NCBI GenBank assembly: GCA_016180645.1
Contig: JACPAV010000019.1
Location: forward strand, 78,560-142,559
Length of the DNA: 64,000 nucleotides
Direction: 5' to 3'
Source of the DNA: Nitrospirota bacterium
Lineage (GTDB): Bacteria; JACPQY01
In this document: one piece after another, positions 915 through 54,915 of the stretch
Position numbering within the stretch: the stretch's first letter is position 1
Layout: each line of letters begins with the position of its first letter
The notes under the pieces: generated by a model
What the model was told of the DNA's origin: nothing
The model's input: only the letters and a program-made list of their open reading frames with translations
Databases searched by the model: none
Translations under genes and position numbers: made by a program

Positions 915-1035
915 CGGGGCACCTACCCTTTCAAGTCTTTGATGAGTGCAAACCTTCCGACAGGCTCATTCTACCAGCATTCGCCGTCTTATCAATGTGC
1001 ACGCGTCACAGCCAGCGCGTATACTCCCGTTGGCC

Positions 1036-2253
1036 ATGAACCTTATTCTTGAAACATCCATCCGGGCCTTGCTCGAGAACTCCCCCCGCGCATCGGACCT
1101 GATCTTCGTGCCGGGCCGCGCGCCGCAGGCTCAAGCCGACGGCGCCCTGGCCGATTCTCCCCCCGGCCTCCCCCCCCTATCCCCGGAGGACATGCGCGTC
1201 ATCGCGGAGGATTTCATGAAGGACCAATCGTATCTCCGTGCCCAGTTCGATTCCCAGGGCAATTGCGATCTGTCGTTCGCCTTTCGCGATCTCTGCTACT
1301 TCCGTGCAAGTCTTTTCCAGGCGCGCCAGGGCATCACCCTCGTGCTCCGCGTCATCCCCAAGGGGGTGCCGACCCTGGAGGATCTCCATCTTCCCAAGCC
1401 ACTCCACGATATCGCCCGCCAGAAGGCCGGCCTCGTGCTCGTGACGGGGGCGACCGGCTCCGGCAAGAGCTCCACCCTCGCCGCCATGATCCACCTGATC
1501 AACAGCGAACAGCCCGTCCACATCATCACCGTCGAGGATCCCGTGGAGTTCGTCCACACCCCCATCAAAGCAACCATTACTCAACGTCAACTTGGACAGG
1601 ATGTCCCTACTTTTTCCATGGCGCTCCGGGCCGCCCTTCGGCAGGCCCCCCAGGTTCTTCTCGTGGGGGAAATCCGGGACGCCGAGACTGCCGAGATCGC
1701 CTTTGAAGCGGCGGAAACCGGCCACCTCGTCCTAAGCACCCTGCACACACCGGATACCCTCCGAACCGTGGAACGGTTCATCGGGCTATTTTCGGAGCGG
1801 GACATCGACTACGTCCGCACGCGCTTCTCACGGGCATTCAAGACCGTCGTCAGCCAGAAACTCCTTCCCCGCAAGGATGGCCCCGGCCGTATTCCGGCCG
1901 TCGAAATCCTCCAGGCGACGCTCCGCACACAGGAGTACGTCCGACTTGGCGACCGGCCGGGCCGTTACTTGGAAGAGGCCCTCGAAGAAGGCGCCCTGGA
2001 AGGAATGCAGTCGTTCGATCAGGACCTCGAACGACTGACCAAGGCCGGACTGATCACCCTGGAGACCGCCCTCGCCCATGCCACGCGTCGCGCCAACCTG
2101 GAACTCCACCTGAGAGCGGATGAAGACATCCAGCTCGATCGGCCTGATCGTGTCTTCTTCCGCCTCAAATCCCCCCATTCGGCAAACGCTCCGTCTCCGG
2201 ACCGTTCCAAGACCGGCCCGGTCGTCTTGCCGTTGAGGCCCAAGAAAAAGTAA
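1036..2253 (+). CDS. PilT/PilU-family type IV pilus retraction ATPase
   Basis: A cytoplasmic hexameric ATPase of the type IV pilus/type II secretion family, 405 residues from the ATG at 1036. The Walker A motif GATGSGKS is at about 138-145, the Asp box EDPVEF at about 168-173, the Walker B region VLLVGEIRD at about 207-215, and the His box TGHLVLSTLHT at about 228-238. The C-terminal GMQSFDQDLERLTKAGLI segment resembles PilU more than PilT. An in-frame extension to 946 would overlap the prfB leader, so 1036 is preferred. No other pilus gene lies in the window. The four-helix-bundle gene starts 18 bases downstream. The family assignment is firm; PilU versus PilT is inference. Confidence 0.88.
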   Translation: MNLILETSIRALLENSPRASDLIFVPGRAPQAQADGALADSPPGLPPLSPEDMRVIAEDFMKDQSYLRAQFDSQGNCDLSFAFRDLCYFRASLFQARQGITLVLRVIPKGVPTLEDLHLPKPLHDIARQKAGLVLVTGATGSGKSSTLAAMIHLINSEQPVHIITVEDPVEFVHTPIKATITQRQLGQDVPTFSMALRAALRQAPQVLLVGEIRDAETAEIAFEAAETGHLVLSTLHTPDTLRTVERFIGLFSERDIDYVRTRFSRAFKTVVSQKLLPRKDGPGRIPAVEILQATLRTQEYVRLGDRPGRYLEEALEEGALEGMQSFDQDLERLTKAGLITLETALAHATRRANLELHLRADEDIQLDRPDRVFFRLKSPHSANAPSPDRSKTGPVVLPLRPKKK

Positions 2254-2255
2254 GC

Positions 2256-2287
2256 ATGGGGTGATGGAGTCATGGAATCATCTGGAA
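2256..2287 (+). repeat. Short 8-bp repeat array, left of the S23-type gene
   Basis: Three units in strict 8-base phase (ATGGGGTG, ATGGAGTC, ATGGAATC), followed by a decayed unit. The third unit supplies the start codon of the gene at 2272. Read as GGRRTCAT, the units are the reverse complement of the ATGAYYCC units on the other side of that gene. For example, 2271-2281 is exactly complementary to 2765-2775. Confidence 0.75.
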
Positions 2288-2658
2288 ATCCATCTCAATC
2301 GGAGGGATTGAAACAGCGTACGAAAACTTTCGCCCTAACCGTCATCCGCCTGTTCCGAACACTGCCGAAAACGGCAGATGCCCAGGTCATCGGCAGACAA
2401 CTGCTTAGATCATCAACTTCCGTTGCGGCGAACTACCGCGCCGCGAGGCGCTCCCGTTCACGGGCGGAATTCATATCCAAGATCGGGCTTGTCGTGGAAG
2501 AGACCGACGAATCGCTTTTTTGGCTTGAACTGATTGCAGAGAGTGGCATCCTTCCACCGGAACAAATTGAGGATCTGATGAAGGAGGCAGGTGAACTGTT
2601 GGCGATATTCGCCGCGTCGCAGCGGACGGCGAAGGCCAACCGTACTAAACTTCGATGA
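2272..2658 (+). CDS. Four-helix-bundle protein, S23/23S intervening-sequence family
   Basis: A 128-residue protein with the family hallmarks LKQRTKTFALTVIRLFRTLP, QLLRSSTSVAANYRAA, RSRAEFISKIGLVVEETDES and FWLELI. Relatives are encoded inside intervening sequences of 23S rRNA genes in Leptospira and Coxiella, and as free-standing chromosomal genes in many environmental bacteria. The Avd accessory protein of diversity-generating retroelements has the same fold. Biochemical function is not established for this type. Here it is free-standing, with no rRNA and no reverse transcriptase nearby. Its start codon is part of an 8-bp repeat, and inverted arrays of that repeat lie on both sides. The first ten or so residues come from repeat-like sequence and do not align to the family core. 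The length is complete. Confidence 0.85.
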   Translation: MESSGNPSQSEGLKQRTKTFALTVIRLFRTLPKTADAQVIGRQLLRSSTSVAANYRAARRSRSRAEFISKIGLVVEETDESLFWLELIAESGILPPEQIEDLMKEAGELLAIFAASQRTAKANRTKLR

Positions 2659-2780
2659 TCCGATGGCCACATGAACATGATTCGATGAATCCATGACCCC
2701 ATGTTTCCATGAATCCATGACCCCATGACCCGATGATAACGTGAATCCATCAAAACATGACCCCATGATTCCATGAATAC
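2655..2780 (+). repeat. 8-bp tandem repeat array (ATGAYYCC), right of the S23-type gene
   Basis: Units of eight bases run in unbroken phase from 2677 to 2780 (13 units such as ATGAATCC, ATGACCCC, ATGATTCC). Two more units lie at 2655-2670, before a 6-base slip. The array overlaps the last codons of the S23-type gene and ends about eight bases before the Shine-Dalgarno sequence GGAGGT of the acyl-CoA dehydrogenase. It is inverted relative to the shorter array at 2256-2287. Confidence 0.85.
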
Positions 2781-2801
2781 ATTCTACGGAGGTAGCCACT
2801 A

Positions 2802-3965
2802 ATGGACAGCAGCCTGCACTGTGACTGGAGCCAATACTTCAAGGAAGAGCACAATATCTTCCGTCAAACGATCCGCAAGTGGATCGAGGCCGAGCTGGCC
2901 CCGAATGCGGACAAGTGGGAGGAAGCCGAGGATTTCCCCAACTGGGTCTTCAAGCGCGCGGGCGAACAGGGATTCCTCGGTCTCCGTTATCCCGAGGACG
3001 TGGGCGGCCTCGGCGGCGACTACTGGTACACCGTCGCCTATGCGGAAGAACTTCCCCGTGCCCAATGCGGCGGGGTCCCCATGGCCCTCATGGTCCAGTC
3101 GGATATGGCCACCTACTCGATCCACCTGCACGGCACGCCCGAGCAGAAAAAGGAATTCCTGATTCCCGCGATCAAAGGTGAGAAGATTGCCGCCCTCGGC
3201 GTCTCCGAACCGTTTGTGGGATCGGACGTGGCCAACCTGAAAACGACGGCGAAGAAAGTCGGCGGCGACTACATCATCAACGGCTCCAAGACCTTCATCA
3301 CCAGCGGCGCGCGCGCGAACTTCATCAACCTGGCGGTCCGCACAGGGGACACCGGCTTTGGCGGCATCTCCATGATCCTGTTCCCCACCGACACGAAGGG
3401 CTTTCAGGTGACCAAGCGCCTCAAGAAAGTCGGGATGCACTCCTCCGATACGGCGGAGCTGTTTTTCGACAACTGCAAGGTCCCGGCGCGATACCTCCTG
3501 GGAGAGGAAGGACACGGTTTCTACTACATCATGGAAGGATTCCAAGGCGAACGCCTGATCGCGGCGATCACGGCGCTGTCGGGCGCCCGGCTGACGTGGG
3601 ACCAGACGTACAAATACGCCCTCGAAAGGAAAGCCTTCGGGAGGCCGATCGGAAAATTCCAGGTTCAGCGCCACCGCTTGGTGGAGCTGATCTCGGAGAT
3701 CGAATGCAATCAGGCTTTTGTCTACTACGTGTGCGATCTGTTCAACCGCAACGTTCCCTGCGTGAAAGAAGTGTCGATGGCCAAGATTCTGGCCGGCGAG
3801 CTCCAGACGAGGGTCACGGACCGCTGCATGCAGGTTCACGGCGGCTATGGCTACATCGAGGAGTACCACGTCGCCCGCGCATGGCGTGATTCCCGGCTGA
3901 TCACCATCGGGGGTGGTACGACCGAGATCATGAAGGAGATCATCGGGAAAATGATCGGGCTGTAG
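2802..3965 (+). CDS. Acyl-CoA dehydrogenase
   Basis: A flavoprotein that oxidises acyl-CoA to trans-2-enoyl-CoA and passes electrons to ETF. It has 387 residues, typical of the family. A clear GGAGGT site nine bases upstream fixes the ATG. FAD and substrate motifs include GVSEPFVGSDVANLKTTA (about 133-150) and MQVHGGYGYIEEYHVARAWRD (about 343-363). The usual C-terminal catalytic Glu of medium-chain enzymes is replaced (ITIGGGTTEI). Glu250 in EGFQGERLIAA instead occupies the helix-G position used by isovaleryl-CoA and long-chain dehydrogenases. A branched or long-chain substrate is therefore inferred. The CoA-transferase/racemase gene follows 24 bases on, which suggests a shared acyl-CoA catabolic role. 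Confidence 0.93.
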   Translation: MDSSLHCDWSQYFKEEHNIFRQTIRKWIEAELAPNADKWEEAEDFPNWVFKRAGEQGFLGLRYPEDVGGLGGDYWYTVAYAEELPRAQCGGVPMALMVQSDMATYSIHLHGTPEQKKEFLIPAIKGEKIAALGVSEPFVGSDVANLKTTAKKVGGDYIINGSKTFITSGARANFINLAVRTGDTGFGGISMILFPTDTKGFQVTKRLKKVGMHSSDTAELFFDNCKVPARYLLGEEGHGFYYIMEGFQGERLIAAITALSGARLTWDQTYKYALERKAFGRPIGKFQVQRHRLVELISEIECNQAFVYYVCDLFNRNVPCVKEVSMAKILAGELQTRVTDRCMQVHGGYGYIEEYHVARAWRDSRLITIGGGTTEIMKEIIGKMIGL

Positions 3966-3989
3966 AACGTAAGGAGAGAGGCGGGAGGA

Positions 3990-5243
3990 GTGAGGCGCAG
4001 GGCGAGGGGCGAAGGGCGCAAGGCGAAGAAGTCACCAGGAACCAGGAACGAGGAACCCGGAACTCCGCCCCTTCCCCTTGCGGGAATCCGCGTACTCGAC
4101 CTATCGAGGCTGCTGCCGGGTCCGTACTGCACGATGGTCCTCGCGCTCATGGGAGCCGAGGTCATCAAGATTGAAGATCCGGGGGGGGGCGACTACGTGC
4201 GCTACCTGCCGCCGTTGATCGGAGATACGAGCTCGATTTTCTGCGCGCTGAATCGAAACAAAAAAAGCATCACGCTCAATCTCAAGCAACCGGACGCCAA
4301 GGCGATCTTCCTCAAACTCCTCAAAACCGCAGACGGCGTGGTCGAGAGTTTCCGTCCCGGCGTCATGGAAAAGCTCGGCCTCTCCTACTCCTCACTCCTC
4401 ACTCATCACCCGTCACTCATCTACCTGGCCATCAGTGGCTACGGCCAGACCGGTCCTTATCGGCTGAAGGCCGGGCACGACATGAACTACAACAGCCTTT
4501 CCGGAGTTCTCAGCATCACCGGTGACCAAGCGGGCCGGCCGATTATCCCCGGGGCTCAACTCGCCGACGTCCCCGGCGGCGCCCTCTTTGGAACGATCGC
4601 GTTTCTCGGGGCATTGGAGGCGAGGCACCGCACGGGCAAGGGGGCGTACATCGACATGTCGATGACCGAGGGATCCCTCGCCCTGCTGACGCAGTATTTC
4701 ACTCAATTCGGCGTCGATGGCATCAATCACGCGCCCCGCTCCATGCCCCTGAACGGTCTGAATCCCTGTTACAACATCTATCGGACGAAGGACGGCCGCT
4801 ACATGAGCCTCGGTGCGCTCGAACCCAAGTTCTGGGAGGCGTTTTGCAACGTGGCGGGCAAGCCGGAATGGATCGGCGACGCCTTCCCGACTTCCGATCA
4901 GCGTCAGGCCGTGCTTGAACGCGTCGAGGAACTCTTCAAGACCAAGACGCAGGCCGAATGGGTCGCGCTCCTTTCGAATGTAGATTGCTGCTGTGAACCG
5001 ATCCTGGATTTCTCGGAGGTCGTGCGGCACCCCCAGCATGCCGAGCGGGGCGTCTTCCTCCGGGAGAAACACAATGGCGAGGACGTCACCTTGGTCCGCG
5101 CACCCTTTCTCTTCGACGGTCGTTCCGTGAATCCACCCTACCTGCCCGCTCCCACATTGGGCGAGCACACGGAATCCGTTCTCGCTTCCGTGGGAGTTCG
5201 CCCCGCGGACCTCGCTCGTCTCCGCTCCGCCGGCGCCGTCTGA
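3990..5243 (+). CDS. CaiB/BaiF family III CoA transferase, possibly alpha-methylacyl-CoA racemase-like
   Basis: A 417-residue family III CoA-transferase-fold protein. The core begins at about residue 29 with LPLAGIRVLDLSRLLPGPYC. The conserved Asp of the family is D164 in AGHDMNYNSLSG. The His-Asp pair there, the ADVPGG segment and LGALEPKFWEAFC are arranged as in alpha-methylacyl-CoA racemases, so racemisation of branched acyl-CoA is as likely as CoA transfer. The start is GTG at 3990 behind a purine-rich stretch. The first 27 residues are basic and derive from AGGAACC-type repetitive DNA, so the true start is uncertain. It lies directly behind the acyl-CoA dehydrogenase, probably in the same transcript. 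Confidence 0.85.
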   Translation: MRRRARGEGRKAKKSPGTRNEEPGTPPLPLAGIRVLDLSRLLPGPYCTMVLALMGAEVIKIEDPGGGDYVRYLPPLIGDTSSIFCALNRNKKSITLNLKQPDAKAIFLKLLKTADGVVESFRPGVMEKLGLSYSSLLTHHPSLIYLAISGYGQTGPYRLKAGHDMNYNSLSGVLSITGDQAGRPIIPGAQLADVPGGALFGTIAFLGALEARHRTGKGAYIDMSMTEGSLALLTQYFTQFGVDGINHAPRSMPLNGLNPCYNIYRTKDGRYMSLGALEPKFWEAFCNVAGKPEWIGDAFPTSDQRQAVLERVEELFKTKTQAEWVALLSNVDCCCEPILDFSEVVRHPQHAERGVFLREKHNGEDVTLVRAPFLFDGRSVNPPYLPAPTLGEHTESVLASVGVRPADLARLRSAGAV

Positions 5244-21368: not shown

Positions 21369-21956
21369 ATGGCATTCCATCTCGCCGACGTGAATGACCT
21401 GCGCTTGGTTCTTCCCCGAATGGCCGCCCCCGTCAGCCAGGCCGTCGAGATGCCCATCCGGGCCGTTGCGGGCGTAAAGAACTCCTCCCCACAGTCTTCC
21501 GCGCCACGGCTGGAGACAGGTGAAGCCGCCGACAAGCCCCGGCGCCCCGTACGCGTGGGGCTCAGGTCCATTTTTGACATGCTGGCTCAGGACGAACTCC
21601 ACGATCTTATCAACATCGCGAACGCCCAGTTCCGGAACGGCAACCTCGCCTCCGCGGCCAACATGATTCGCCGTGCCCACCGGTTGGTGAACCGCCCACC
21701 GGAAGACCAGGAGGAGAGCATCCAAGGACTTCCATCCCCCTATGAGGATGAAGAGGATGCCCAGTCCGCACCGGAGTCGTCCTATCTCACCCGCGAAGGC
21801 GCGAATGCCACCGTGCACAGCCGGCTGCAAACCGCCGCCCCGTTCGACTTCCCCGAATTCGACGACGCCGCCAAGGCCACCCTATGGCGCTCCACGCAGG
21901 AGTTCATGACCGTCCAGCCCCCTTCGGCCGGCATACAAGTCAGCCTCTACATCTGA
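21369..21956 (+). CDS. Hypothetical protein
   Basis: A 195-residue protein of no family I recognise. Residues about 67-104 (IFDMLAQDELHDLINIANAQ and on) look like a pair of amphipathic helices, TPR-like, flanked by low-complexity, proline- and acid-rich stretches. It has no signal peptide and no membrane segment. It lies between the phosphohexomutase and the HAD gene on the same strand with short gaps, and codon use resembles its neighbours, so it is probably a real gene. Confidence 0.6.
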   Translation: MAFHLADVNDLRLVLPRMAAPVSQAVEMPIRAVAGVKNSSPQSSAPRLETGEAADKPRRPVRVGLRSIFDMLAQDELHDLINIANAQFRNGNLASAANMIRRAHRLVNRPPEDQEESIQGLPSPYEDEEDAQSAPESSYLTREGANATVHSRLQTAAPFDFPEFDDAAKATLWRSTQEFMTVQPPSAGIQVSLYI

Positions 21957-21998
21957 TCCCGCCTCTCGCCTTGCGCCCTGCGCCATGACATCGGATCG

Positions 21999-22745
21999 AT
22001 GAGACCCACCACCATCGGCTTGGATTTCGTCGAGACTCTCTATTCCGTGGACACTCAAAATCTGCCTGAAGTCGAATTCGGCGGACGTCCCTTCAGGAGC
22101 ACCATACCCCTGACGTTCGAGTTGGTGAGGGCTCAGGCCCGCGATCTCACCCTGGATCGTTACTGCCAGGCCGTGTTCGAGGCGTACCGGGATGCCGAAG
22201 TGGAACGCGAGGCGACCTCCAGGGAGATTTTATCCGACGACATCTACAGAAAGATCGTGCGCTCCGTCCTCCCGGCGGGAACGGCCGAGGATCTTGCCTT
22301 GGAGGTCGGCCGGCTCCATAGAACCCATCTCGCCACAGCACTGGTCCTCCCCCGGGAGCACGTGGCCATGCTGAAACAGCTCCGGGAAAGATTCGCCCTT
22401 GGGGTCATCTCGAACTTCGACTCAACCTCAGTAGTGGAAACGGTGCTTCGGCGGGACGGGATCGCCGACCTCTTTGCGGCCGTCGTCATCTCGGCGGAAG
22501 TCGGCTGGCGCAAGCCCCACGCCAGGATATTCCAAACTTTCACCGATCGGCTCGGTGTCGAGCCGTCGGAAGTGCTTTTTGTCGGCGATCACTACCGATA
22601 CGACGTCGTCGGCGCCCGGAAGGCCGGAATGCAGGCGGTATGGCTCGGCAAGAGCGGCGACCACGGCATGCCCCCGGAATCGGACCGTGCATCCACTCTG
22701 GCTGCGCTCACTGAATTGCCCGCCTACATCGACTCGCTCTCGTAA
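21999..22745 (+). CDS. HAD-superfamily hydrolase with a variant motif I
   Basis: A 248-residue protein of the HAD fold. The nucleophile Asp9 is present in GLDFVETLY, but the acid/base Asp expected two residues on is valine. Motif II is VISNFD, motif III the Lys in GWRKPHARIF, and motif IV VGDHYRYDVVGARKAGM. A helical cap lies between motifs I and II. Loss of the second Asp argues against ordinary phosphatase chemistry; relatives with other residues there include dehalogenases and phosphonatases. The substrate is unknown. Confidence 0.82.
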   Translation: MRPTTIGLDFVETLYSVDTQNLPEVEFGGRPFRSTIPLTFELVRAQARDLTLDRYCQAVFEAYRDAEVEREATSREILSDDIYRKIVRSVLPAGTAEDLALEVGRLHRTHLATALVLPREHVAMLKQLRERFALGVISNFDSTSVVETVLRRDGIADLFAAVVISAEVGWRKPHARIFQTFTDRLGVEPSEVLFVGDHYRYDVVGARKAGMQAVWLGKSGDHGMPPESDRASTLAALTELPAYIDSLS

Positions 22746-54855: not shown

Positions 54856-54915
54856 CCCCGCAACTCCGATGAAATCTCAAATCTCCAATCTGAAATCCCC
54901 GCTGCGGGGTGCACC

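Follow-up and report, generated by a model that had tools for sequence, protein, structure and literature searches.

An intervening sequence (IVS) of 23S rRNA with an S23p ORF was reportedly the subject of a paper by Ralph and McClelland in 1993. IVSs that carry this ORF are known from Leptospira and Coxiella, and in the Coxiella IVS tandem heptamers, variable in copy number among strains, stand just 5' of the S23p start, with an RNase III cut at the first heptamer repeat (PMC4990558). The origin and function of IVSs have been termed unclear since their first description, and mobility has been proposed for them on the grounds of their inverted repeats and ORF (PMC4990558). Arrays of heptamers and octamers have also been published, without a tie to an S23-type gene (PMC4679880, PMC2700814). 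In the open-licence literature we found no paper that describes a general link between inverted short arrays and S23-type genes, which is weak evidence of novelty.

Here we analyse an S23-type gene that stands between inverted arrays of an 8-bp unit in a 64-kb stretch of DNA (the window), together with its relatives in the same genome (the host genome) and elsewhere. As in the rRNA IVSs, the ORF lies within terminal inverted repeats capable of forming a stem; the window copy is not inside an rRNA gene and sits between two protein genes. An Rfam scan of the 64-kb window returned two tRNAs only and no rRNA, in agreement with a preliminary description that had placed the gene outside any rRNA gene.

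An S23-type gene between degenerate inverted arrays

The S23-type (four-helix-bundle) ORF is intact and encodes 128 aa (Table 1). The assignment to this family, proposed before any profile search, holds: the gene scores above the curated cut-offs of both PF05635 (53.7 bits vs 33.8, E = 2.7e-14) and TIGR02436 (78.4 bits vs 24, E = 4.3e-22), and as such is a member of the S23 / 23S_rRNA_IVP family. A relative of the protein in the PDB is 2RLD, with five chains (profile E = 1.7e-25). Profile searches recognised no catalytic domain (nuclease, transposase, or reverse transcriptase) in the S23-type protein. The ORF is the sole gene between the arrays and the unit holds no Y1 transposase, so that it is not an IS200/IS605 or RAYT element.

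Table 1. Features of the S23-type locus and its neighbours (positions in the window).
Feature	Positions	Strand	Basis and remarks
Upstream neighbour, type II/IV secretion ATPase-like gene	946..2253	+	PF00437, E = 3.1e-43; ends just 5' of left array
Predicted closing stem, left strand	2252..2281	+	RNA fold and local alignment
Likely mobile-unit extent (putative ends)	2254..2785	+	Array limits and empty sites of other elements
Left array	2255..2281	+	~3.4 degenerate 8-bp copies, GGGGTGAT GGAGTCAT GGAATCAT; TRF and sequence
S23-type gene	2272..2658	+	PF05635, TIGR02436, 2RLD profile; ATG inside left array
Out-of-phase units before main right array	2653..2675	-	ATGATCCG ATGGCCAC; sequence
Right array	2676..2782	-	~13 degenerate units, reverse complement of left unit; TRF
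Predicted closing stem, right strand	2677..2706	+	RNA fold and local alignment
Downstream neighbour, acyl-CoA dehydrogenase	2802..3965	+	PF00441, PF02770, PF02771

The left array begins directly 3' of the upstream gene's stop codon and has 3.4 copies with a 78% match by TRF. For the right array, TRF reports 13.4 copies at period 8 (66% match, score 60) and a higher-order period of 32 (76% match, score 123). The preliminary description had counted three GGRRTCAT units in 8-base phase on the left and 15 ATGAYYCC units on the right. On the left, two of the three are exact and the third, GGGGTGAT, is not; on the right, the inverted array is real, but only four units are exact, the remaining in-phase units are imperfect, and the first two stand out of phase. 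Two further points were read correctly, i.e. that the start codon falls inside the left array (TRF and sequence), and that 2271-2281 (CATGGAATCAT) is the exact complement of 2765-2775 (ATGATTCCATG). A stem with the ORF in its loop had also been proposed, and the RNA fold of 2250-2795 (-187.9 kcal/mol, z = -3.4) predicts one, in which an interrupted stem of 27 pairs closes the ORF loop; the best pairing, however, joins the two strands given in Table 1 rather than this 11-bp match. Overall, the earlier observation is partly confirmed: it is real, with arrays more degenerate than stated.

The period-8 self-match peaks at 2681 in the window (36/48, with the runner-up at 25/48). Inverted arrays of one 8-bp unit, within the 7-9-bp range, stand on both sides of the gene, with an inverted-arm score of 40 by local alignment compared with 17 +/- 2 in shuffles; this score depends on including the part of the array that runs over the start codon, as trimming the left flank at the ATG gives 25. 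A sliding control along the window reached scores of up to 34 at ~21700-22600, away from the S23 gene. An exact-pattern search of the host genome for three perfect consensus units gave no match, because the units are degenerate.

Inverted arrays are the rule in the S23 family

Relatives were scored by aligning the 250 bp upstream of each gene to the reverse complement of the 250 bp downstream, with a score of 28 or more taken as positive. In the sampled genomes, mostly one per family, 40 of 52 relatives have inverted arms, compared with 6 of 52 in direct orientation and with none of 29 control acyl-CoA dehydrogenase genes from those same genomes. The host genome has five PF05635 genes above the cut-off, and all five are flanked by inverted arrays, each with its own unit. 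Inverted arms are also present in 61 of the 78 scorable relatives among 80 named loci from 15 phylum-level groups, compared with 20 of 1369 control positions in those loci (1.5%); the named loci were picked by a motif of the window gene's own subfamily and are therefore not a random sample of the family. Inverted arrays are the rule for the S23 family and chance is rejected, with ~20% of relatives having no detectable inverted arms. Both counts (40/52 and 61/78) bear out the link between free-standing S23-family genes and inverted arrays that had been drawn from the window alone.

Viral contigs yielded one relative only. Genes of the GxxExxY family (PF13366) are flanked by inverted 8-9-bp arrays in 12 of 19 cases, often CACAGAGA-like (L056-L076), with few matches on plasmids. 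In one genome, many PF05635 matches form divergent pairs (L114-L118), unlike the single-gene units, and one such pair (L114) surrounds a hairpin. Another S23 element (L002) lies between divergent prepilin-like genes, where its array units are apparently part of predicted leader peptides.

The sequence of the unit varies between elements, even inside one genome, and what is conserved is the inverted plan of 7-8 bp only. Of the 115 elements whose unit is clearly 7 or 8 bp long, 86 have heptamers and 29 have octamers. Unit length goes with the protein lineage: on the protein tree, which is built from few columns and has many weak forks, it changes 11 times compared with 26 in shuffles (0/500), and for 63 named rows it changes 5 times compared with 12.8 in within-phylum shuffles (0/2000). 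Host phylum changes 27 times on the protein tree of these 63 rows. Co-inheritance of the arms and the gene can explain the correlation with the tree without contact between protein and array.

Within elements, the order of the units agrees between the two arms, in register, more closely than when units are permuted (mean rank 0.65, 81 elements, p = 4e-5), which means that the arms are copied from each other or held by pairing; the match could reflect selection on RNA structure rather than copying. The S23-type gene itself has a dN/dS of 0.02-0.14 at orthologous sites, indicating strong purifying selection.

Gene and arrays come and go together

Copies other than that of the window show that the S23 inverted-array family is mobile. 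At site A, the gene with both arrays is present on the Trichormus and Scytonema plasmids, while plasmids of Aulosira, Tolypothrix, and Nostoc linckia, which are 97% identical, have neither gene nor arrays; GTAAT (5 bp) is duplicated at the insertion, and Nostoc C052 holds a decayed remnant. A comparison of occupied and empty plasmids at site G likewise reveals a duplicated TTCTA (5 bp), and the elements at sites A and G are related to each other. Plasmids also differ in whether sites C, E, and F are occupied or empty, and the junctions there are less regular, i.e. an imperfect duplication with ~35 extra bases at site F and junctions that are not clear-cut at sites C and E. The joint absence of gene and arrays from these empty sites supports the small mobile unit that the preliminary description had envisaged, and no homologous locus at the sites examined keeps the gene without the arrays. 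The growth by unit steps suggested there is seen as well, with array lengths that differ by 7, 14, or 21 bp, all multiples of 7, between near-identical plasmids (Nostoc, Trichormus/Scytonema, and Planktothrix).

At least four near-identical copies are present in one sampled genome, one of them apparently interrupting a ferritin-like gene (L110-L113); these copies are a larger composite unit that includes an S23-type gene, and the ends of this unit are not the arrays. For the window copy we found no empty site; the only genome of the same family has no syntenic context for the window neighbours. In Anabaena 90 an S23 element lies at a cas6-cas4 junction, and at that junction a 99% identical Dolichospermum plasmid bears a different, palindrome-ended insert.

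An S23-type insert with heptamer arms in a 23S rRNA gene

Plasmid AZO_p2 of Azospirillum lipoferum 4B has an unannotated S23-type match inside a 23S rRNA gene (Rfam RF02541), and this rRNA-borne gene has inverted heptamer arrays on both sides. Where this 23S copy has 473 bp, the second copy on the plasmid has a 19-bp hairpin tip, GTGTGATCTTCGATCACGC. On the two sides of the insertion site, the copies are identical for 428 and 500 bp, which may result from a recent insertion or from gene conversion between rRNA operons. From the flanking sequence, we take the insertion site to be helix 45. Other Azospirillum plasmid records, among the matches listed, match the 23S region without the insert.

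The A. lipoferum insert supports the link to rRNA IVSs that was first drawn for the window, and so do the heptamers and the RNase III cut of the Coxiella IVS (PMC4990558). Units that stand free and those in rRNA look like a single kind of mobile element, and it is likely that S23 units and rRNA IVSs share an origin.

Solo arrays and scattered units

In 456 kb of the host genome, surveyed in fetched stretches, we find 68 arrays, of which 57 lie away from S23-type genes. Inverted pairs at gene spacing occur in four places, in each case around an S23-type gene; two more inverted pairs enclose 38-bp loops and no gene, and the reversed-only control gave 0. Solo arrays exist in number, but gene-spaced inverted pairs are found only around S23-family genes in this sample. 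Units of the arms of resident elements recur in 17 of the 57 solo arrays, compared with 2 for permuted units. In other genomes, inverted pairs flank other genes too, mostly at places where a single unit recurs throughout a chemotaxis cluster. Given that solo arrays are common and units are scattered in some related loci, the gene is not required for arrays to arise or spread.

Three loci (L196, L216, and L225) have GAATGCG-type arrays across chemotaxis genes, coding linkers included, beside an S23 element with a GAATGCG-type unit. The window has solo arrays of its own. Two adjacent heptamer arrays, GGCGAAG-type then ACCAGGA-type, lie between two genes at 3972-4063, and the unit of the latter is common to the arms of S23 element L002 of the host genome. 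A CTCCTCA heptamer array lies within a CoA-transferase-like coding sequence (4382-4421), and the unit of a solo AAATCTC array (54872-54897) is that of the arms of S23 element L003.

Discussion

The window locus is probably a copy of a widespread mobile unit of ~0.43-0.53 kb, in which an S23-family gene is closed by inverted arrays of 7-8-bp units. In the family, the gene and both arrays are gained or lost as one unit at several sites, and the arrays gain or lose whole units. We propose that the ends may be recognised by their fold (a DNA or RNA hairpin) and repeat period, with no fixed sequence, and that the S23-type protein may bind them. The enzyme that cuts or copies the strands would be supplied in trans, since no nuclease, transposase, or reverse transcriptase domain is recognised in the sole gene of the unit. 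A unit between genes would be tolerated beside stop codons, and one in rRNA would be tolerated where its terminal stem replaces a hairpin tip, a stem that would be a natural substrate of RNase III. The S23-type protein may in addition be of use to the host or help to maintain itself, given that resident copies are under strong purifying selection. A broader class of small mobile units, with inverted tandem arrays as ends that are read by fold and period and not by sequence, is a tentative reading that we regard as possible; it would include at least two gene families with no relation to each other, S23-type and PD-(D/E)XK GxxExxY, leave solo arrays as footprints, and be the source of rRNA IVSs.

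The arrays might instead belong to an independent class of intergenic repeats, like the cyanobacterial STRR heptamers, in which S23-type genes merely settle. Such a class would account for the 57 arrays that stand alone in the 456-kb sample of the host genome, 17 of them with units of resident arms, for the arrays scattered in the chemotaxis clusters of three related loci, and for the published heptamer and octamer arrays with no tie to an S23-type gene (PMC4679880, PMC2700814). It is nonetheless improbable, because arrays are absent from empty sites along with the gene, the arms are inverted in 40 cases and direct in 6, i.e. they are not one continuous array, gene-spaced inverted pairs in the host-genome sample enclose S23-family genes only, and unit length tracks the protein tree. 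That the arms serve RNA, as a closing stem for RNase III or in translational control of an operon gene, in a domesticated unit that is now immobile, is possible if on balance unlikely. The predicted 27-pair closing stem (z = -3.4), the strong purifying selection at fixed orthologous sites, and the processing of rRNA IVSs by RNase III (PMC4990558) are all consistent with such a role, whereas presence/absence polymorphism on close plasmids and the different sites of related genes indicate movement of the family, though not of the window copy.

The source of the enzyme in trans bears on two other proposals. Resident HUH (Y1) transposases could act on the hairpin ends, which we consider rather unlikely. 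Y1 genes occur in 21 of 22 genomes with S23-type genes and in 17 of 38 without (Fisher p = 6e-5), the host genome having five, but this is a correlation in 60 genomes only and is open to confounding by the size of the genomes and their mobile-element load. Of 21 Y1 genes (L263-L282, mostly ~317 aa), 19 also have inverted ends whose inner part varies, but these ends commonly have TGGGGTCAG before the variable part, and sequence of this type is not seen in S23 arms. Duplications of 5 bp are not expected from IS200/IS605-type transposition, and those at sites A and G do not fit it. Movement by way of RNA, aided by a reverse transcriptase as for the homologous Avd in diversity-generating retroelements (DGRs), is very improbable: the arms, as RNA, would fold into a stable hairpin and S23 proteins are reported to be homologous to Avd (PMC10053308), but the host genome (97% complete) has no RVT_1 match, and hence no associated reverse transcriptase of the DGR kind, and across 60 genomes RVT_1 is not associated with S23-type genes (4/22 vs 10/38).

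A mobile S23 unit bears directly on the long-standing puzzle of the source of 23S rRNA IVSs. If this unit stands free in many phyla and is polymorphic in its presence, with empty sites, the proposal that IVSs are mobile becomes directly testable outside rRNA, in plasmids from cultured cyanobacteria. Some of the degenerate arrays of heptamers and octamers that have been a puzzle in bacterial genomes may have a common origin in it, and the unit raises the question of how ends are recognised when their sequence keeps changing.

Comparison with known systems

A REPIN is a palindrome of fixed sequence that contains no ORF. The S23 unit resembles REPINs with their RAYTs and other non-autonomous elements in being small mobile DNA with inverted ends and no enzyme of its own (PMC3116915), and differs from REPINs in having a conserved gene enclosed by tandem arrays, whose sequence changes, as its ends. 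The likeness to DGRs is based on Avd, a homologous four-helix-bundle protein (PMC10053308), and in contrast to a DGR the host genome has no detected reverse transcriptase. The cyanobacterial STRR/heptanucleotide arrays, the TAACTGA repeats of Beggiatoaceae, and the hepta- and octanucleotide sites of Geobacter, which are partly paired on opposite strands, are tandem 7-8-bp units like the S23 arms; they differ in being reported as regulatory or solo rather than as ends of an S23 mobile unit (PMC4679880, PMC2700814). With the rRNA IVSs, the window unit shares an S23-family ORF and stem-forming terminal inverted repeats, and with the Coxiella IVS in particular it shares short repeats at the start of the ORF. 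The window copy differs from them in its place between protein genes, its 8-bp unit, and its longer right array. The rRNA insert of A. lipoferum has the inverted heptamer arms of the free-standing units, a likeness that can be seen directly in its sequence.
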